This document shows, piece by piece, positions 7,221 through 49,616 of a DNA stretch of 64,000 nt. Each line of letters begins with the position of its first letter. Position 1 is the stretch's first letter. The stretch comes from Phycisphaerae bacterium. Lineage in GTDB: Bacteria > Planctomycetota > Phycisphaerae > UBA1845. The translations under genes and the position numbers were made by a program. Below the pieces are notes generated by a model, which saw only the letters and a list, made by a program, of their open reading frames with translations, was not told the DNA's origin and ran no database searches. The stretch is from contig JAJVHU010000003.1 in the NCBI GenBank assembly GCA_022072505.1, positions 1 to 64,000 on the forward strand. Direction: 5' to 3'.

Positions 7221-8345
7221 ATGAAAACGACGACGTGGATTGCGACGGGTGTTTTTTGTTTGTTCATCAGCGCCGGGTTCGCCCAGCAGAAGGGCGGTCT
7301 GGAGTCCGGGTTGCGGCTGCCCGAGCCGAACCTTGTTTCGATGGGTCAGAAGATCCACCCGCTTCGGGCGGTTCTGGCGGATGAGAATCGCCAGCCGATC
7401 GGTCCGTGGGTGGATCTGGGCGACAACGGGGTTGCCGAGGACTGCGGGGCGTCGCTGTGCTTCGACAACGTCGAGACCAACGGACGGGACGTGAACGAGA
7501 GCCAGCCGGGCGACGGGTATTACGGTCTGGATTGCGGGATGGGCAGCGGGCGCTGGTTCTTCGGTCCGGGATTCTGCGACACGTTCTGGATCGACGACGC
7601 GGATATGACCGAGACGTGCGACGGTCAGGACATCGGTCGGATCCAGCATGCGTTCTGGTGGGATGCCTCGGGACCGGGGTCGTCCGAGCAGGCGATGCTT
7701 TACATCGGGCTTCATGAGGATTTCAACGACTGCGCCGGCGTTGCGGGATTCCTGGGGGCGTTTTTGTTTGATTTCGGTCCGCTGCCGTCCAGCCAGGACA
7801 CCGGGGGGTATTACTACTTCGATATTCACACGTGCGGGTTGTTCGGAACCATCCCGGCGCCGGCGGACGGGCGGGGCGCTTATGAGGGCGCGTACCTGAC
7901 CGCCGACGGCGGGGCGTTTGCGACGTGCGCGCAACCGATGCTGTGGAGCACGGACAAGCCGCTGAATTACAGCGCGCAGTCGGGGCTGAAATTCGCGGAC
8001 ATCAATCCGCGCGACGGAGTCATCATTTATGCGGACGAGTGTTTCGACTACGGCGCGTTCACCTGTCCCGGGGTGGTAGGGACGGCGACGGCGATGTGGC
8101 AGAAAGGCTCGCCGAACGTGACGCCGAAGCTTCGCGCGAAGTGCGGCAACGGGTCGGTCGTGGCGCGGATCCGGGATGCGGCGCCGGGGCAGCTTGTCAC
8201 GCTTGAGCTGGACGGCATCCGGTCGCGCACCAAGGCGGTCAAGGCCAACGGCCGGTGCAAGGTCCGGTTTGATTTTGTGCCCGCCGGTCCGCACACGACG
8301 CGGGAGCTTGAGAATGAGTTGATGCGCAACGTGCCGTGCGAATAA
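7221..8345 (+). CDS. Secreted protein of unknown function, paralog of the next gene
   Basis: A 374-residue exported protein with a Sec signal peptide (MKTTTWIATG.., cleavage probably after SAGFAQ). The mature part is rich in Trp, Tyr, Gly and paired Cys: EDCGASLCFDNVETNG, GYYGLDCGMG, RWFFGPGFCDTFW, IGRIQHAFWW, then FATCAQPMLW and CPGVVGTATAMWQKG. The same ordered blocks occur in the gene at 8631, so the two are tandem paralogs. The last ~75 residues (from about 298) form a separate beta-rich domain with LRAKC, PGQLVTLELDG and a terminal Cys; it is also found at the ends of the genes at 8631, 32359 and 33917. I do not recognise the family. Start ATG 7221 has GGAGG at 7211-7215; the longer frame to 7086 has no site. 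A terminator follows at 8394. Confidence 0.85.
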   Translation: MKTTTWIATGVFCLFISAGFAQQKGGLESGLRLPEPNLVSMGQKIHPLRAVLADENRQPIGPWVDLGDNGVAEDCGASLCFDNVETNGRDVNESQPGDGYYGLDCGMGSGRWFFGPGFCDTFWIDDADMTETCDGQDIGRIQHAFWWDASGPGSSEQAMLYIGLHEDFNDCAGVAGFLGAFLFDFGPLPSSQDTGGYYYFDIHTCGLFGTIPAPADGRGAYEGAYLTADGGAFATCAQPMLWSTDKPLNYSAQSGLKFADINPRDGVIIYADECFDYGAFTCPGVVGTATAMWQKGSPNVTPKLRAKCGNGSVVARIRDAAPGQLVTLELDGIRSRTKAVKANGRCKVRFDFVPAGPHTTRELENELMRNVPCE

Positions 8346-8630: not shown

Positions 8631-9800
8631 ATGAACCGAAGCATGACGGGTCTGCGCCTGGGCGCGTTGTTTTTTCTGGGTGCGGGGTTTCTGGGATCGG
8701 CGGGCGCGGCGTTCGCGCGTCAGGACGGGGAGGCCGACGGATCGGTCGATCAACCGGCGCTTCAACTGGCGCATGAGCATGTCCGGGTCGTGCCGCAGTA
8801 CGCGGCGCTGGTGAACCGGCGACATGAGCTGGTGGGCGGGTGGCAGCGGATCGACGACGTTGTGATTCAGGAGGATTGCGGCGCGTCGCTGTGCTTCGAC
8901 GGGGTCGAGACCAACGGGGAGAACGCGCTCAATTCGCGTCTTGCGGACGGGTACTACGGGTTGGACTGCGGCGTCGGGGGGTCGCGGTGGTTTCTGGGCC
9001 GGAACTACTGCAACACGCTCTGGGCGAACGACTTCGACATGCCTCCGGGGTGCTCGGACGTCCACATCGGGCGGGTTCAACATGCGTGGTGGTGGCAGGT
9101 TCAGGGGACGGGGACGCGCGAGCGGTGTTACATCGAGTTTTCGTTTTACGAGAACTACTCCGGTTGCGACGGGTTCGACGGATTCGTGTCGGGCGTGGTG
9201 CTGGACTTCGGCGAACTGGAGTCGAGCCAGGGGGTGGGCTTCTACTACGTGGACCTGCCGCTGTGCCGCCTGCCGCTGGACAAGCTGCGCGGGCCCGCGG
9301 ACGGCGAGGGCGTGTACGCCGGGGCGTACTACCGCTCGTTCGGCGAGGTGACGGAGTTTGCGACGTGCGCGCAGCCGATGTTGTGGGGCCTGAACAAGCC
9401 GCTGCACTACGCGACGCAGAGCTGGGAGAGCTTCGACGACGTGACGCCGCGCGACGGGGAACTGTCTTTCCCCGATGAGTGCCGGGATTATGACACCGGC
9501 GTGTGCCCCGGTCCGCTGGGGGCGGCGACGTCGTTCTGGCGCAAGGGCAAGAAGAGCGGCGAGATGCAGATCACGCCGCAATTGCGCGTGAAGTGCCTTT
9601 CCGCGACGGTGCTGGTCGCGCGGGTGAAGAACGTCACCCCGGGCGAACTGCTGACGTTCGAGCTGAACGGGCGGATCGTGGATCAGCGCAACGCGAACCG
9701 CAAGGGAAAGGCCCGCTCTCCGAACACGGTCGTGCGGCGCGTGCCTTACACGGTCCGCGTGCCCGAGTATTTCCTGACCCGCAACCAGATCTGCGGGTGA
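8631..9800 (+). CDS. Secreted protein of unknown function, second tandem paralog
   Basis: A 389-residue exported protein with signal peptide MNRSMTGLRLGALFF.. ending near GAAFARQ. It shares the order of blocks with the 7221 gene: QEDCGASLCFDGVETNG, GYYGLDCGVG, RWFLGRNYCNTLW, HIGRVQHAWWW, FATCAQPMLWG, CPGPLGAATSFW. Cysteines are conserved between the two, suggesting disulfides outside the cytoplasm. The last ~75 residues carry the shared C-terminal domain (LRVKC, PGELLTFELNG, KGKAR, final Cys). ATG 8631 is supported by GGGGGAGA at 8621-8628. Function and partners are unknown; its own promoter suggests paralog-specific control. Confidence 0.85.
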   Translation: MNRSMTGLRLGALFFLGAGFLGSAGAAFARQDGEADGSVDQPALQLAHEHVRVVPQYAALVNRRHELVGGWQRIDDVVIQEDCGASLCFDGVETNGENALNSRLADGYYGLDCGVGGSRWFLGRNYCNTLWANDFDMPPGCSDVHIGRVQHAWWWQVQGTGTRERCYIEFSFYENYSGCDGFDGFVSGVVLDFGELESSQGVGFYYVDLPLCRLPLDKLRGPADGEGVYAGAYYRSFGEVTEFATCAQPMLWGLNKPLHYATQSWESFDDVTPRDGELSFPDECRDYDTGVCPGPLGAATSFWRKGKKSGEMQITPQLRVKCLSATVLVARVKNVTPGELLTFELNGRIVDQRNANRKGKARSPNTVVRRVPYTVRVPEYFLTRNQICG

Positions 9801-32358: not shown

Positions 32359-33360
32359 TCACTCGCAGGTCACGGTCGTCGAGAATCCGCAGGCGGGAAT
32401 CTGCACGTCGTGCTCGCCGTTGGCGACACCTTTGAATGTAAGCTTGGCCTTGCCCCGGTCGTTGGTGCGCCCGATCTGCGCCGAACCGCCGTCCAGCACG
32501 GCGGTGGTCAGGCAACCCGTGGGGGCCTGCTTCACCTTGACGGTAATCTTGCCGCGGCGACAGGAGGCCGAGACCGTCCCGCAATCCTCGCAGGGCGCGC
32601 CCTCGGCGAAGGACCAGTTCACGACGTCGTGGTTGTCGGCGAGGAAATCCGCGCCGGTCGCGGAAGTAAAGCCGACCCAGGCGTTTCCGCCCTTGTCGAG
32701 AATGTTATCCCCGCGCACGTTCATGAGGTCGATCGCGGCGGTGAGCACGGGCGTGGCGAGGTCGTCGATGTAGACGTTCATGACGCCACCGGCGTATTGC
32801 ACGCGGGCGGTGTGCTCGGCTTCATCGTTCAGATCGACGGGCGACTCGACGATCCCGAGGGAGAACTCGTCTTCCCAACGATTTTCGTTCGCCCCGTCGC
32901 TCTGGATCGAGATGTGATTGGAGGATTCCGGGTCGAAGCCGAAGGTGTCGAATTCGACCGCGAGGCTTTGGGCGATGCCGCCCTGGCCGTTGTCGCCGTA
33001 CCCCATGCCGCTGCCGCCGCTGCCGAGGGCGTCCGCGCTGTCGTTCTGGACCAGGAAAGCCAGGCCGTCCGCGCCGTCGTCCGCGTTGTTGAACATGCGG
33101 AAGGTGAAGACGGTGTCGAAGCCGCCGTGAACGTGGTTTTTTTCCAAGGTGTACCAGGCGGCGCCGCGCTCGTCGCCCGCGGTGCCGGTGAGCCGAAGCA
33201 CCCGTCCCTGCACGCCGGTGCTGCCGACGAGGGTCAGGCCGGAGGGGTCGCGGAAATCGCTGTAGTTGAAGTCCGCGGCGAGCGCCGCGCCGGCCAGACA
33301 GACCGAAAGGATGACCGAAACACCGAGGCTCATTCGCGACGATCGGATAGCCGTTTGCAC
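32359..33360 (-). CDS. Secreted legume-lectin-like protein with shared C-terminal domain
   Basis: A 333-residue exported protein. After the signal peptide (LGVSVILSVCLAGAALAA), the mature part has the L-type lectin pattern: DFNYSDFRDPSGLTLVGST, an FDTVFTFRM strand, ADGLAFLVQND, QSLAVEFDTFGFDPESSNHIS (in part) and VYIDD, ending WVGFTSATGADFLADNHDV; Asp and Asn in EFDTFGFD fit the metal/sugar site of this fold. The final ~75 residues, after CEDCG, are the beta-rich domain also ending the proteins at 7221, 8631 and 33917 (TTAVLDGG, TNDRGKAKLTF, terminal Cys pair). GTG 33360 has GGGGAGAG five bases upstream; the frame is open to 33435. Probably binds carbohydrate at the cell surface. Confidence 0.82.
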   Translation of the reverse strand: MQTAIRSSRMSLGVSVILSVCLAGAALAADFNYSDFRDPSGLTLVGSTGVQGRVLRLTGTAGDERGAAWYTLEKNHVHGGFDTVFTFRMFNNADDGADGLAFLVQNDSADALGSGGSGMGYGDNGQGGIAQSLAVEFDTFGFDPESSNHISIQSDGANENRWEDEFSLGIVESPVDLNDEAEHTARVQYAGGVMNVYIDDLATPVLTAAIDLMNVRGDNILDKGGNAWVGFTSATGADFLADNHDVVNWSFAEGAPCEDCGTVSASCRRGKITVKVKQAPTGCLTTAVLDGGSAQIGRTNDRGKAKLTFKGVANGEHDVQIPACGFSTTVTCE

Positions 33361-33591: not shown

Positions 33592-33741
33592 ATGGACATG
33601 ACAAAAAACCGTCACCGGTCGGCACGGTTTCGACAGCTTCTGGCGAGCCAGGCGGTGTGCCTCCCCGGAGCGATCCACGCGCTGTCGGCGCGGCGGATCG
33701 AGCGGGAGGGTTTCGAGGCCAGGTGTTTTTCGGGGGCGGAC
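33592..33741 (+). pseudogene. Decayed N-terminal fragment of a prpB paralog
   Basis: The frame encodes RFRQLLASQAVCLPGAIHAL followed by SARRIEREGFEARCFSGA, which matches the start of the intact methylisocitrate lyase-like gene at 37194 (RFKKLRAILSDHAVCMPGAI, SARLIEREGFEAMYLSGA). After about 50 codons the similarity ends abruptly near 33741 and the frame runs on as unrelated sequence. Bases 33682-33739 match 37283-37340 at roughly four in five positions by eye, so the copy is old. The fragment and the intact gene lie in the same orientation on either side of the M36-like protease gene. Confidence 0.75.
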
Positions 33742-33916: not shown

Positions 33917-36757
33917 TTACGGGTTGCAGCTCGTGGTTCCGCAGACGGCCGGGCATTCGTCCACGCAGATCGTGTGTGATCCGCCGGACACGCCGGTCCA
34001 GATCGCTTTCGCCTTGCCGCGACTGTTGGTCACGACGTTCTGCGAATCCGATCCGTCCAGAGTCAGGGTCAGCGGAGTGCCGCCGGGCAGCGACGACTTG
34101 ACCACGCCCTTGAGCTTGAAGGATCCGTCGCGGCACGTCGTCTTGAGCTGGCTGATGAGCCCGCAATCCACATCGGAGCAGACGAACCGGTTGATGGACA
34201 CGGCGTCCACGCCGGCTTCGGTGACCGAGTCGTTCGGGTTGTCCGTCGCACTGAATCGGACGCGGACCTGCGCCGTGGGCGCGACGTAGTCCGCGACGTT
34301 GACGGTGCGCTGCACCCAGCCGTCGAAGTGCCCGACGCTTTCGACCGTCGTCCAGGTTGAGCCGTTGTTGTTGGACAACTCGACGGTAAGCCGGTCGATG
34401 TCGCGGTCATCATTGGTGAACCAGCGCGCGTAGCTGAGGACGTACTCACCCGGCGCGGACAGATCCAGCGTCGGCGACAGCAGGCGCGTCGGTCCGCCGT
34501 CCACGTCGGAGTTGCCGGACACGTTGTCCGTGACGTAGCAGGAGCCTGACCCATCAAAGTCGGCCGGCGGGTCTCCGCGACCGCCGTTGACGGGCACTCC
34601 GCGGGTCCAGGGTCCGTCGGTCAGGTTCTCATTCTGAACCGTCCAGCCCTGGTTGGTCTGGAAGTTATCGGTGAAGACGACGACCTGGCCCGCACCGGCG
34701 CTGTAGTTCCCGCCCTGCGGATCGCGGTCATTGCCGCCGCCGGTGGTCATCGCGCTAAGGAAGAAATCCACCGCGCTCCCGCAGGCCACGCCGGGGAGGG
34801 TCGCCTCGAACACGCGGCCTCCGAGGTTGTTCAGACCGACCGCGGTGAATCCGCCTCCGTCGACGCGGTAATTAAGGCGGGGACTGTTCTCGTCCAGTTC
34901 GCCCGCCAGGTCGTCGATGCGCACCTCGAACGTCGTCGCCACGTTGGGCGTCAGCGACGTCGGAACGCCGTCGGGATACGAGAAGCTGAGCAGCTCGAGC
35001 GGCGGCGCGTCCATGTTGTGCTCGCCGAACCCCGCGGCGATCTGGGCGTAGTGGGGCGTGCCGTTGCCGATGTCGCCGTCGGTGTCGTCAAGCGTCAGGT
35101 AATCGATGGTGATGTCCGGCGCGATGCCGCCGCCGGTGTGCATCAGGATCGAATTCACCGCAAGGCGGCTCAGGATATCCAGGTACGTGTCCGGATTCGT
35201 CTGAAGCAGCTCATCGCGCGTGCTCCAGACGCAGCCGGAGATCAACTGACCGCAGAAGTGAATCTCCCCGTTGCACGGATATTGCAGATTGTTGTTGGCG
35301 TTGCGGATGCCGTTGTTGCAGTTGTTCTGGAATCCGTAAGCGAGCACCGGATTATCGACGATGAGCACGCCCATCACGTCGCCCATCCCCTCGCCGTATT
35401 CGTTCTGCCCGCTGCCGCCGACCTGCACGAGATGGTGGCCGTACTCGTGATGCACGACCGTATCAAAGGCCGTGTTCGCGCAGCCTCCGCCCGCTGAGTA
35501 AAAGTTGATCGAGCCTCCGTCATAAAAGGCGTTGCAGGTGCTCGAGAGATTGACGTTGACCCGGAATTCCTGCTGGTTGTTGATCGTCGGGTAATTCGGG
35601 TTCTGGACGAGGGCGAAATCGCGCACGATGTTGGACTGCACGTACGCGTTGACCTCCGCCCGGATCGAGGCGTTGTTGTTCGCCGCGTTGTGCATGAAGT
35701 GGGCGGGGCCCGGCGGGGTCACCTGCTGCGTCAACACGGCGGCGTCCGCGCCGTTGCTGTACCGCACGCGGAACCAACGCCCGCGCACGCCGGATTCAAC
35801 CGTCACGGGGGTGTTCCCGCCGTGCGGAATGACGAAGTTGCCGGCGGCGTCCGCAAAGGCCGTGTTGCCGCCCTGAACCAGGACGCGGGCATAAGGCATG
35901 ACAAAGGGGATTTCATCGCCGCAGATGTCCGCACCCACTCCGGTCGGCGTCGCCATCCCGCTCACGCTTCCCGTCACGTCGATGTGCCGGATCTGGTTCT
36001 CATCGAAAAGAACGGCGCCGGTCAGGGCGTCCACCAGAAGCAGGCGCTTGGCGTAGCCTTCCTGGTTCACCTGTCCGTTGTCCGCGAGCAACTGCATCGC
36101 CAGCGTCGGCTGCACCCGCATGTCCTCGACGCCCGCCCAGATCACCGGTTCGAACGCGAGAACGCCGGTCAATTCGGGGTGAACGTTCTGAGCAGACTGG
36201 AACGCGGATTCGACGTTCAACCCGGCGAGCGCGTCCCCGGTCACCGTGTATCCGCCCAGATCCCGCAGACCGGAGGACACCAGCACGAGCGGGTAATCCG
36301 CTTCGTTGCGGACCAGGAGGCGGACGTCCGCGCGGAACACGGGCACGCCGTCCTTCACCTGGCGGTAGGACATAAGCGTGAAGCGATAACGATCCTCATC
36401 CGGAAGATACATCACGGGCACGGTCGAGAGGTTGTCGCCGATCAGACCGCCGGGGACGAGGTCGGCCGCCTCGACTCCGAACACGTCGCTGTAAAGCCCG
36501 AGGAACCCGAGCGCGGAGGCTTCGGGCGACTCGCCGCTGCTGAACGCCTGTCCGTAAACGCGCGTGACCCGCCCGTTCAGGATGAACAGATCGGACCCGG
36601 GATGATCCGCGCGGAACATCGACCACGCCGGGACGTCCTCGGCGACCGGTTCGCCGATCGAGCCTCGCCCGCGATCGGCCGCCCACGTCGTGGCGGCGGA
36701 CGCCAACAGGACGACCCACGCCGCACCAGCGCAAAAGCTCACCTTCCTACCCTGCAT
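33917..36757 (-). CDS. Secreted M36/thermolysin-like metalloprotease with C-terminal domains
   Basis: A 946-residue exported protease. Signal peptide (1-27, VVLLASAATTWAA), then a FTP/PepSY-type propeptide (about 40-225, with GLYSDVFGVEAADLV and YRFTLMSYRQVKDGVPVF, in part). The catalytic domain has HEYGH (His437-His441) with Glu456 in YGEGMGDVMG as the third zinc ligand, the gluzincin layout of M36 fungalysins and M4 thermolysins; NNCNNGIRNANN and STRDELLQTNPD follow. C-terminal part: an Ig-like region (about 575-690), a jelly-roll MAM-like region (GWTVQNENLTDGPWTRG to VRFSATDNPNDS, in part) and the shared ~75-residue end domain with LTLDGSD, TNSRGKAK and a terminal Cys cluster. ATG 36757 has GGAGGA upstream; the open frame continues to 37462 only as antisense of prpB. 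Secreted protein degradation is the likely role. Confidence 0.88.
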   Translation of the reverse strand: MQGRKVSFCAGAAWVVLLASAATTWAADRGRGSIGEPVAEDVPAWSMFRADHPGSDLFILNGRVTRVYGQAFSSGESPEASALGFLGLYSDVFGVEAADLVPGGLIGDNLSTVPVMYLPDEDRYRFTLMSYRQVKDGVPVFRADVRLLVRNEADYPLVLVSSGLRDLGGYTVTGDALAGLNVESAFQSAQNVHPELTGVLAFEPVIWAGVEDMRVQPTLAMQLLADNGQVNQEGYAKRLLLVDALTGAVLFDENQIRHIDVTGSVSGMATPTGVGADICGDEIPFVMPYARVLVQGGNTAFADAAGNFVIPHGGNTPVTVESGVRGRWFRVRYSNGADAAVLTQQVTPPGPAHFMHNAANNNASIRAEVNAYVQSNIVRDFALVQNPNYPTINNQQEFRVNVNLSSTCNAFYDGGSINFYSAGGGCANTAFDTVVHHEYGHHLVQVGGSGQNEYGEGMGDVMGVLIVDNPVLAYGFQNNCNNGIRNANNNLQYPCNGEIHFCGQLISGCVWSTRDELLQTNPDTYLDILSRLAVNSILMHTGGGIAPDITIDYLTLDDTDGDIGNGTPHYAQIAAGFGEHNMDAPPLELLSFSYPDGVPTSLTPNVATTFEVRIDDLAGELDENSPRLNYRVDGGGFTAVGLNNLGGRVFEATLPGVACGSAVDFFLSAMTTGGGNDRDPQGGNYSAGAGQVVVFTDNFQTNQGWTVQNENLTDGPWTRGVPVNGGRGDPPADFDGSGSCYVTDNVSGNSDVDGGPTRLLSPTLDLSAPGEYVLSYARWFTNDDRDIDRLTVELSNNNGSTWTTVESVGHFDGWVQRTVNVADYVAPTAQVRVRFSATDNPNDSVTEAGVDAVSINRFVCSDVDCGLISQLKTTCRDGSFKLKGVVKSSLPGGTPLTLTLDGSDSQNVVTNSRGKAKAIWTGVSGGSHTICVDECPAVCGTTSCNP

Positions 36758-37193
36758 CTTGGTTCCTCCTCGCATGTTTGCGCGGCGCCTGGACGCCTTC
36801 GCCGCGCCATCGGATCGTTTCCTTTTGACCACCCCTCCGCGCCCCGTCCCCGGCGCGGCGCGGTCCGCGGCGAACGATATGCGGCCTGAGCCCGCATGTT
36901 GGTGTGCCGTCCCCCGAACCCGCTCTTGATAAGGGTAGCCGATTCGGCGGCGGGGTCCAAGAAAATTCCGATAATGTTCACAGAACCTCGACCTGCCGCC
37001 CGCCGCACCGGTTCGACGAGGCCCACGGTTCCGGGGGGCTGCGCTGTCCACGAGCGTCAGGCCGGGCGTGTCACGGTCATCCCTGAATCTGAGGTCCACG
37101 GACGCCGCCCCCCCCGGGGCGACTTCAGCGGATCTGTCGGACTCCACGCAGACCTGTAACATAAGGGAACAGACAAAACAGGGGCGCACGCCA
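36758..37193. other. Divergent intergenic region between protease and prpB
   Basis: These 436 bases hold no gene. On the minus strand TTGGAC (36960-36955) and TACCCT (36937-36932), 17 bases apart, could be the protease promoter, but the match is weak (three of six bases at -10). On the plus strand no ribosome-proximal promoter for prpB is convincing. Confidence 0.35.
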
Positions 37194-38042
37194 ATGAACA
37201 CAACCGTGAACCAGGGCCGATTCAAAAAGCTCCGAGCGATCCTGTCGGACCACGCCGTCTGCATGCCCGGGGCGATCAACGCGCTGTCGGCACGCCTGAT
37301 CGAGCGGGAGGGGTTCGAGGCGATGTATCTTTCCGGGGCGGTGCTGGCCAACTGCGTGGGCGGCGTTCCGGACGTCGGGTTGATGACGCTGACGGAGGCG
37401 CGGGAGCATGCGGCGCGGATCGCGTCGGTCACGTCGATCCCGATCCTGATGGACGCGGACACCGGTTACGGCGGACCCGACAACGCCGCCCGCACGGTGC
37501 GCGAGCTGGAGGGTGTCGGCGTCAGCGCGATTCATCTCGAGGATCAGGAGTTTCCGAAGCGCTGCGGACATCTGGAGGGCAAGAAGCTCGTTCCGGAGCA
37601 CGAGTTTTGTGAAAAGATCGCGGCGGCATCGGCGGCGAAGACCAGCCCGGACTTCCTCATCCTCGCCCGCACCGACGCTCGCGGGGTCACCGGGTACGAC
37701 GACGCCGTGCGGCGGGCGCACCTGTACCTCCAGGCCGGGGCGGACGGCGTGTTCCCCGAGGCGCTTCAGTCACGCGAGGAGTTCGCCCGCTTTGCGCAGG
37801 ACGTGCCGACGATCCTGCTGGCGAACATGACCGAGTTCGGCAAAACGCCGATGCTGACGGTCGAGGAGTTCGGCGCGATGGGCTATCGCATTGTCATCTT
37901 CCCGGTGACCCTGCAGCGGATCGCGATGAAGGCGATGGAGGAATGCCTGCGCGTGCTCAAGACCGAGCGGACTCAAAGCGCCGTCGTCGATCGGATGCAG
38001 ACCCGTCAGGAATTGTACGACCTGCTGGAGTATGAGGCGTAG
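37194..38042 (+). CDS. prpB: Methylisocitrate lyase / PEP mutase family enzyme
   Basis: A 282-residue member of the isocitrate lyase superfamily. Seen: AVCMPGAINALSARLIE, FEAMYLSGA (substrate Ser-Gly), ILMDADTGYGGP (about 84-95) with the metal-binding Asp pair, HLEDQEFPKRCGHLEGK containing the catalytic KRCGH loop (about 123-127), LARTDARG and ANMTEFGKTP. The Cys-bearing loop and overall length fit methylisocitrate lyase of the propionate methylcitrate cycle, which releases pyruvate and succinate; other lyases of the family cannot be excluded because prpC and prpD are not nearby. ATG 37194 starts the conserved N-terminus; GGGGCG upstream is a modest ribosome site. A decayed paralog fragment lies at 33592. 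Confidence 0.85.
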   Translation: MNTTVNQGRFKKLRAILSDHAVCMPGAINALSARLIEREGFEAMYLSGAVLANCVGGVPDVGLMTLTEAREHAARIASVTSIPILMDADTGYGGPDNAARTVRELEGVGVSAIHLEDQEFPKRCGHLEGKKLVPEHEFCEKIAAASAAKTSPDFLILARTDARGVTGYDDAVRRAHLYLQAGADGVFPEALQSREEFARFAQDVPTILLANMTEFGKTPMLTVEEFGAMGYRIVIFPVTLQRIAMKAMEECLRVLKTERTQSAVVDRMQTRQELYDLLEYEA

Positions 38043-48122: not shown

Positions 48123-49616
48123 ATGAAGAATCTGTTGAATGCGCCGCTGGCGATGATGCTTCTGACGATTGCGGGGACCGGCCTGGCCGGCTGCGGGCTG
48201 GGCTACCTGGACGAGGATGATCTGCCGTCGGAGGTGGCGGTTCGGATCGAGAACGCGTCGGACGAGGATATCTTTGTGACGCTGGACGCGGCGGAGAATT
48301 CGGGAGACGCCGGCAGCGACGGCATGACGCCGCAGGGAGAGAGCGGCGACGCCACGGCCCGGGTGAAATCCGGCGGGCTTGCCGCGAAGACCTCGGTGAT
48401 CCGGGTTCCGCCGCACTCGTCTTCGCTGGGGACGGTGACCTGCGGCGAGGGGTTGAGCGTCGTTGCTGAAGTCGGCGATATCGGGGGGATCCCGGTGACG
48501 CTTGCCGGCGTCGGGGCCGGGGCGGACGGCTTTGATGAGGGGAGCCTCGGACTGGAAGGAGAACGTCTGCTGGTTCCCGGAGTTCACTTTGCGTGCTCGG
48601 ATACGCTGATCGTTCGGATCGGTGCGGGTCTTTCCGGCGAGATCGAGCGCGTTCCCGAAGGGGTCGAACTGCCGGAACCCGATGTGGGCGACGACGGCGG
48701 GTCAAACGACAACGTTGATGACGGATCGGGATCCGCGGATCAGGCGGTCGGGTTCCGGCTTCAGAACGCGACGGATTCGGCCGTGGAGTTCGTGATTGCT
48801 CCGGTGGACGAAGACGGAGAGGAGGCCGGAGAGGAGACGGTAATCCGGGTGCCGGCGCGGCAGTTCAGCAGCGGGATGGCGGCATGCGGTCCGACGTACG
48901 TGGTTTCCGCGACGGTTCCGAGTCCGTCGGTGGTCGTGCCGGTGACGTTGCTCGGCGCGGGGAGCGGAACGCCGGGGTTTGACGGAGGCAGCGTCGGCGA
49001 GGAGGGCGAGCGGATTCTTGCGTTCAGCGAGCATTACGGCTGCGGCGACGCGATCGTGGCGACTTTGACCAGCGACGGCGGAGCGTCCTCGGGCGACGGC
49101 GGCGCGGTGGGTTCGGGGACGGTGGAAGTGTACGCGAGCGGAGAGAGCATTCCGGACCCGGATCTCGGCGACGAGGACGGCGGGGATGACGGATCAGCGC
49201 GCCTTGTCGTGGCGATCCGCAACGAGACGGAGAGCTTTGTTCAGGTTCGGCTCACGCCGGAAGCCGGAAGCTCGGCCGGGACGGCGGTCGACGTCCGGCT
49301 TCCGCCCGCGGGGACCAGCACCGGCGAGCTGGCGTGCGCGGATTCGTACACAGTCGCCGCGTTTCATCTCGAGAGCGCGGACAGCACGGCCGAGGAAGGG
49401 TTTCACACGATCGTACTGACGGGGGCGGGCACGGGGACGGAAGGCTTCGACGGCGACAACGTGGGCACGGACAATACACGGCAGGTTCTCGTCGGGACGC
49501 ATCTGACGTGCGACGCCGTGCTGGTCATCACGTTGTCGGCGACGAACAACGCGGTCGATCCCGAGTCGGGTGAGACGACGTTCGGGATCGGGGACGGCGT
49601 GCTGGCGGTGGAATGA
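48123..49616 (+). CDS. Lipoprotein with three tandem beta-rich repeats, function unknown
   Basis: A 497-residue lipoprotein with lipobox GLAGC (Cys24). Three units of about 130-150 residues follow, each with the same order: a VxIxN strand (VAVRIENAS, VGFRLQNAT, LVVAIRNET), a VIRVPP/VIRVPA/DVRLPPAG strand, a Cys in TVTCGE / MAACGP / ELACAD, then LxGxGxGxxGFDxGxxGxExxR (GVGAGADGFDEGSLG; GAGSGTPGFDGGSVG; GAGTGTEGFDGDNVG) and a second Cys in VHFACSD / EHYGCGD / THLTCDA. Each unit therefore holds two Cys that may form a disulfide. Linkers are Asp/Gly/Ser-rich. I do not recognise the repeat as a named family. ATG 48123 has AGGA about ten bases upstream. Confidence 0.83.
   Translation: MKNLLNAPLAMMLLTIAGTGLAGCGLGYLDEDDLPSEVAVRIENASDEDIFVTLDAAENSGDAGSDGMTPQGESGDATARVKSGGLAAKTSVIRVPPHSSSLGTVTCGEGLSVVAEVGDIGGIPVTLAGVGAGADGFDEGSLGLEGERLLVPGVHFACSDTLIVRIGAGLSGEIERVPEGVELPEPDVGDDGGSNDNVDDGSGSADQAVGFRLQNATDSAVEFVIAPVDEDGEEAGEETVIRVPARQFSSGMAACGPTYVVSATVPSPSVVVPVTLLGAGSGTPGFDGGSVGEEGERILAFSEHYGCGDAIVATLTSDGGASSGDGGAVGSGTVEVYASGESIPDPDLGDEDGGDDGSARLVVAIRNETESFVQVRLTPEAGSSAGTAVDVRLPPAGTSTGELACADSYTVAAFHLESADSTAEEGFHTIVLTGAGTGTEGFDGDNVGTDNTRQVLVGTHLTCDAVLVITLSATNNAVDPESGETTFGIGDGVLAVE

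Follow-up and report, generated by a model that had tools for sequence, protein, structure and literature searches.

Four exported proteins encoded in the window (the whole 64-kb stretch of DNA that was analysed) were found to end in the same small domain, about 127 copies of which are present in the 4.67-Mb host genome. This tail was classed as a C-terminal domain of the sorting or anchoring type that falls outside every family tested, and it has probably not been described before. A preliminary description, made from the sequence alone, had reported a C-terminal domain of roughly 75 residues common to the proteins at 7221, 8631, 32359 and 33917, and had inferred a module for sorting, anchoring or secretion. 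The shared domain held, the length held approximately (about 75-83 amino acids), and the functional proposal was supported as a class; which of the three functions applies was not resolved, and no partner was found. The supported reading was strengthened because relatives fill the same position with dockerin, GC-type dockerin or IPTL-CTERM-like signals, which are depleted in the tail-rich genomes.

Tail-bearing genes in the window

The four genes and their parts were located as follows:

7221..8345, + strand: exported protein with unassigned body and C-terminal tail (from its translation); signal peptide at about 7221-7283 (MKTTTWIATGVFCLFISAGFA)
8115-8342, + strand: Ig-like tail of the 7221 protein, divergent, with two Cys, ending NVPCE-stop; profile E 5e-23
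8631..9800, + strand: tandem paralogue of the 7221 gene, with signal peptide and tail (from its translation)
9564-9797, + strand: tail of the 8631 protein, the most divergent of the four, ending QICG-stop; profile E 1.9e-20
32359..33333, - strand: exported L-type (legume-like) lectin with C-terminal tail; PF00139 at residues 20-245, E 2.4e-22
33277-33333, - strand: signal peptide of the lectin protein
32362-32595, - strand: lectin tail, ending TVTCE-stop; used as query when the whole genome was first searched
33917..36757, - strand: exported zincin with choice-of-anchor J domain and tail; HEYGH at residue 437; signal peptide at about 36680-36757
34193..34675, - strand: choice-of-anchor J domain (NF038128) of the 33917 protein; E 1.2e-7, 32.1 bits (cutoff 30)
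33923-34168, - strand: tail of the 33917 protein, canonical, with an NSRGKAKAIW motif, ending SCNP-stop; profile E 1.8e-27

No Pfam or NCBIfam family matched the body of the 7221 protein. The lectin body named in the preliminary description was confirmed. The M36 protease body was plausible and remained unconfirmed, as the 33917 protein has a zincin motif but matched no Pfam family; it is likely to be a fungalysin-like protease. Its choice-of-anchor J domain is the last domain of the body and lies directly ahead of the tail. An initial Cys, which had been thought common to all four tails, was not, the first and third Cys being missing from those of 7221 and 8631.

Compared pairwise by BLASTP, the four tails gave E values from 1e-13 to 6e-4; a lack of significant similarity, named beforehand as one outcome that would refute the shared domain, was thus not observed. 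A profile made without the window contig, from 103 tails encoded elsewhere in the host genome, matched all four, with E values of 1.2e-24 (33923-34168), 1.2e-14 (32362-32595), 3.2e-12 (8115-8342) and 7.5e-6 (9564-9797). As a control, all 257 window ORFs were shuffled 20 times and also reversed, and the same profile then gave zero matches. Chance similarity among the tails was ruled out by the leave-contig-out profile together with the shuffles.

Exported proteins without a tail, such as the lipoproteins encoded at 2905 and at 48123, are also present in the window, and the tail is therefore selective. Between the lectin and protease genes, a 100-bp segment (33640-33739) shares 81% identity with 37242-37341, the start of an isocitrate-lyase-family gene at 37107; it is a degraded copy of part of that gene and hints that the region was once duplicated in tandem.

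Domain sequence and predicted fold

The consensus of the tails reads C-x(5-8)-L-x-A-x-C-R-x-G-K-x(4)-K-V-x(3)-P-x-G-T-x-[LV]-T-[LF]-x-L-D-G-x(6-9)-N-x-R-G-K-A-K-x-K-[WF]-x(5)-G-x-H-x-V-x(3)-[ED]-C-x(6-9)-C-[PEG]-stop. Its four Cys columns were occupied in 96, 94, 102 and 106 of 108 tails, respectively, and are presumed to form two disulfides. A seven-stranded Ig-like sandwich was predicted by AlphaFold2, with a pLDDT of 87 from 27 sequences, and a pLDDT of 96 and pTM of 0.84 from 43 sequences.

Tails and bodies differed in composition. In 97 proteins, the net charge per 100 amino acids was +3.9 for the tail and -7.1 for the body of the same protein (Wilcoxon p 1e-17). Lysine made up 7.3% of tail residues and 0.95% of body residues, and the ratio K/(K+R) was 0.50 and 0.15, respectively. 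Each of the three lysines of the RGKAKxK strand was a Lys in 60-67% of tails. Since the carrier proteins otherwise favour Arg, this suggests that the tail lysines matter.

No Pfam or NCBIfam family scored above cut-off for the tail, and no solved homologue was found by sequence (best E 0.16). Foldseek searches with the tail model returned only generic Ig-like domains (best E approximately 0.01), some of which are CBMs, and no description of the domain was found in the literature searched.

Copy number, position and export in the host genome

A single tail used as protein query was enough to reveal about fifty sites across the host genome. The total count comprised 109 copies found by profile A2 (E <= 7e-5) and 18 of a divergent subtype, marked by a KVVxxDxSHDG motif, found by profile A5. 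In 111 of the 119 copies examined the tail ended no more than 15 residues from the stop codon, and a few proteins contained tandem or internal copies. The last Cys, described at the outset as terminal, was normally the second-last residue (exactly one residue follows it in 88 of 111), so this claim held only in part; the final residue was Pro in 78 of 111, and Cys-Pro-stop was the commonest ending.

A hydrophobic N-terminus, called by a simple hydrophobicity rule for signal peptides, was present in 97 of the 111 C-terminal carriers, the remainder being mostly short fragments or proteins with uncertain starts. An SPase I-like AxA motif was recognised in 92 of 96 N-termini, and few were lipoprotein-like. 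The sole kinase among the carriers has, judged by its sequence, a cytoplasmic kinase domain followed by a transmembrane segment and then the tail on the outside. Neither random positions nor cytosolic carriers, the two other outcomes that would have refuted the preliminary description, were therefore encountered. The gene for this membrane Ser/Thr kinase with its extracytoplasmic tail (L247:16811-18580, in G000:C5) adjoins three genes with tails as well as a gene for an ECF-type sigma factor.

The domain also occurs alone, as a 99-residue protein consisting only of a signal peptide and the domain (L147:9305-9601, - strand, in G000:C23; L149:6982-7278; L150:10183-10479), which has been kept in three of the inspected genomes of the host genus. 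In these three genomes its gene lies next to a further tailed gene, an ABC exporter and paired genes for a histidine kinase and a response regulator. At two further loci (L098 and L109, in G000:C40 and C64) broken or very short tail remnants lie amid intact tailed genes, which suggests a rapid turnover of tail modules.

Carrier bodies and the C-terminal slot in relatives

The bodies that bear the tail are unrelated to one another and include kelch (15 of 94), FG-GAP and BNR/sortilin propellers, S8 and M14 peptidases, beta-helix proteins, PHB depolymerase, CHRD and lectin. Among them are the NCBIfam choice-of-anchor B, J, Q and V families; the name choice-of-anchor denotes families with interchangeable C-terminal anchors.

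Choice-of-anchor B proteins were gathered from 114 genomes of the order, and the C-termini of thirty were read. The C-terminus was the tail in G000, G348 and G349 (host genus) and in G356. In many other genomes it was either a dockerin, PF00404 scoring above cut-off in 4 of 10 scanned ends and more weakly in 4 more, or a GC-type dockerin (NF041540). In G368, G375 and, by eye, G367, the proteins ended in an IPTVSQWG-helix-arginine arrangement resembling IPTL-CTERM; for two of them the model gave weak scores. The choice-of-anchor B proteins of G361, G363 and G362 (L165, L173 and L179) carry a GC-type dockerin that terminates in CVPSCP, so that Cys-Pro-stop occurs in the order on a second kind of ending.

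The tail thus fills a slot that is held by dockerin or IPTL-CTERM-like signals in relatives. The five tail-rich genomes had 21, 8, 6, 18 and 7 dockerin matches, whereas the median for 46 other members of the family was 42 (Mann-Whitney p 7e-4). None of the five had IPTL-CTERM, which occurred in 40 of the 46. As the five tail-rich genomes are monophyletic on rpoB (support 1.0), the replacement of dockerin and IPTL signals amounts to one evolutionary event resting on a single clade, so that there is less independent evidence than the p value implies.

Distribution and spread

Within the order, four genomes of the host genus and G384, of the sister genus, were the only ones with at least 49 copies each; a few other relatives had one to four copies. 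The domain was C-terminal in the low-copy relatives G351, G355, G382, G373, G356 and G357. In G335 and G338 (L128 and L129; another family of the order) it lies directly ahead of a dockerin-like end, and in G364 it is internal; in these three genomes it cannot be a terminal anchor, because it is not at the end. The arrangement in G335 and G338 could be ancestral, the domain having begun beside an anchor and later taken over the end. Samples of 293 and 391 other genomes of the phylum, in which few candidates were scored per genome, yielded either nothing or four weak, partial and internal Ig-like matches of about 25 bits. A contig search with a subset of tails found only three named MAGs (JABWBH01, JADZBE01 and BroJett003).

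Tail DNA in the array on contig C6 was 83-92% identical between genes with unrelated bodies and unrelated flanking DNA. Because near-identical tail DNA is joined to unrelated genes, the tail is a module that spreads at the DNA level, through copying or gene conversion. The array (L045, G000:C6:2709-16939) consists of seven tailed genes with unrelated bodies, and identity of the tail DNA over all seven is 80-92%.

Proposed role and rival explanations

The reading preferred here, on balance and without great confidence, is that the tail is a portable folded C-terminal sorting or anchoring module acting after Sec export through an envelope receptor; both the localisation and the receptor are inferred. 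The carrier would be exported by Sec and cleaved by SPase I, and the tail would fold outside the cytoplasm into its seven-stranded Ig-like sandwich. Two disulfides would hold the sandwich together, the final one closing the C-terminal strand. One envelope receptor common to all carriers would then read the Lys-rich outward face (the N-x-R-G-K-A-K-x-K strand) and the invariant C-terminal edge, and would either retain the carriers at the cell surface or deliver them there. The basic tails set against acidic bodies suggest that the binding partner may be a receptor of acidic character or a surface polymer that is anionic. Whereas IPTL-CTERM and LPXTG signals are clipped, the tail would probably stay on the protein. 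The neighbourhoods of eleven regions revealed no receptor, translocon or processing enzyme beside tail genes; apart from assorted genes, those inspected (tail clusters, the stand-alone domain and two sister-genus loci) contained only an ABC exporter, a two-component system and an ECF factor. A bolder version is conceivable but less likely than not: a new surface-delivery system confined to one planctomycete clade, similar to the T9SS CTD by convergence, would read the Ig-like tail through a receptor or translocon of its own in the outer envelope, and would have replaced dockerin and exosortase signals on more than 100 proteins.

The tail could instead be an outer-membrane export signal in the manner of the T9SS CTD, recognised in the periplasm by a new dedicated translocon, with or without removal of the tail. 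This remains possible, though rather unlikely. In its favour, the combination of a Sec signal peptide with a C-terminal seven-stranded Ig-like domain and conserved Lys matches the T9SS CTD plan (PMC11285876, PMC10202324), and many cargoes are of extracellular type. Against it stand the absence of SprA and of any T9SS CTD model match to the tails, and the tags replaced in relatives serve docking or anchoring, not export. Alternatively, an ordinary accessory Ig-like module, binding polysaccharide or matrix or acting as a stabilising cap, may have been amplified in one lineage without any sorting role. The nearest families are indeed the generic Big_3_5 and Big_1 (below threshold), and Foldseek found only generic Ig-like domains, CBMs among them; the best argument is the position ahead of a dockerin-like end in G335 and G338, to which the internal copy in G364 and the tandem copies in a few proteins may be added. 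This explanation is nevertheless unlikely, given the strict terminal site, the Cys-Pro-stop ending, the functionally unrelated carriers, the dockerin depletion and IPTL-CTERM absence in the same clade, and the presence of the tail on a transmembrane kinase. That the tail truly belongs to the T9SS CTDs (type A, B or C), or to the signals of the PEP-CTERM, IPTL-CTERM or LPXTG type, is all but excluded: location and cargo style are similar and two exosortases are encoded, but there is no SprA, no CTD or CTERM match and no C-terminal helix or basic cluster, and IPTL-CTERM is absent from the tail-rich genomes.

How planctomycetes place their surface proteins is poorly known. With the tail on roughly 3% of genes (a rough estimate), its profile annotates more than 100 otherwise hypothetical proteins per genome and offers a handle for finding the receptor. 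The clade also presents a wholesale switch of sorting tags, together with the spread of a tag between unrelated genes by copying at the DNA level.

Comparison with known systems

The preliminary description had likened the tail to the C-terminal domains of type IX and PEP-CTERM substrates while calling its motif different, and this held, as no CTD or CTERM model matched. The nearest described plan is the T9SS CTD (type A/B, Bacteroidota), a C-terminal Ig-like seven-stranded sandwich with a conserved Lys on Sec cargo (PMC11285876, PMC10202324), which is of similar size and fold and is likewise carried by many unrelated Sec-exported cargoes. The tail differs in that the CTD motifs are replaced by a Cys-Pro ending and by conserved Cys residues in two pairs, and the described T9SS CTDs are said to be confined to Bacteroidota. 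T9SS CTD models did not match any of 10 tails (E <= 1), nor did they appear among the best-populated families of 94 full proteins; the translocon protein SprA (TIGR04189), which alone was searched and not PorV, PorU or the motor, went unmatched (E <= 1) in the host genome, which is 95% complete. Membership among the T9SS CTDs was rejected by sequence, on the lack of both CTD model matches and SprA.

With the IPTL-CTERM and PEP-CTERM signals (TIGR04174, TIGR02595) the tail shares a C-terminal position, lineage-specific expansion and diverse signal-peptide carriers. It is, however, a folded domain of about 80 amino acids without their motif-helix-basic cluster: the aligned tails showed no C-terminal membrane helix or basic cluster, and no CTERM model matched 10 tails. 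The host genome encodes two exosortases (EpsH-family genes) and no IPTL-CTERM proteins. Membership in PEP-CTERM or IPTL-CTERM was rejected on the missing helix and basic cluster, the missing CTERM matches and the absence of IPTL-CTERM from the tail-rich genomes.

Big_3_5 and Big_1 (PF16640, PF02369) are probably distant fold relatives, scoring 18-21 bits on some tails, with a best score of 20.7 bits against a Pfam gathering cut-off of 35.5. Domains of these families are usually internal repeats, whereas the tails are single and terminal. Type I and GC-type dockerins (PF00404, NF041540) occupy the same slot of choice-of-anchor B proteins in relatives; the tail is all-beta and Ig-like where the dockerin is EF-hand-like and calcium-binding, it has no known cohesin-type partner, and PF00404 did not match the tails. 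The general traits of a sorting or anchoring domain are nonetheless met, the tail being terminal, borne only by exported carriers and interchangeable with other anchors on the same bodies.
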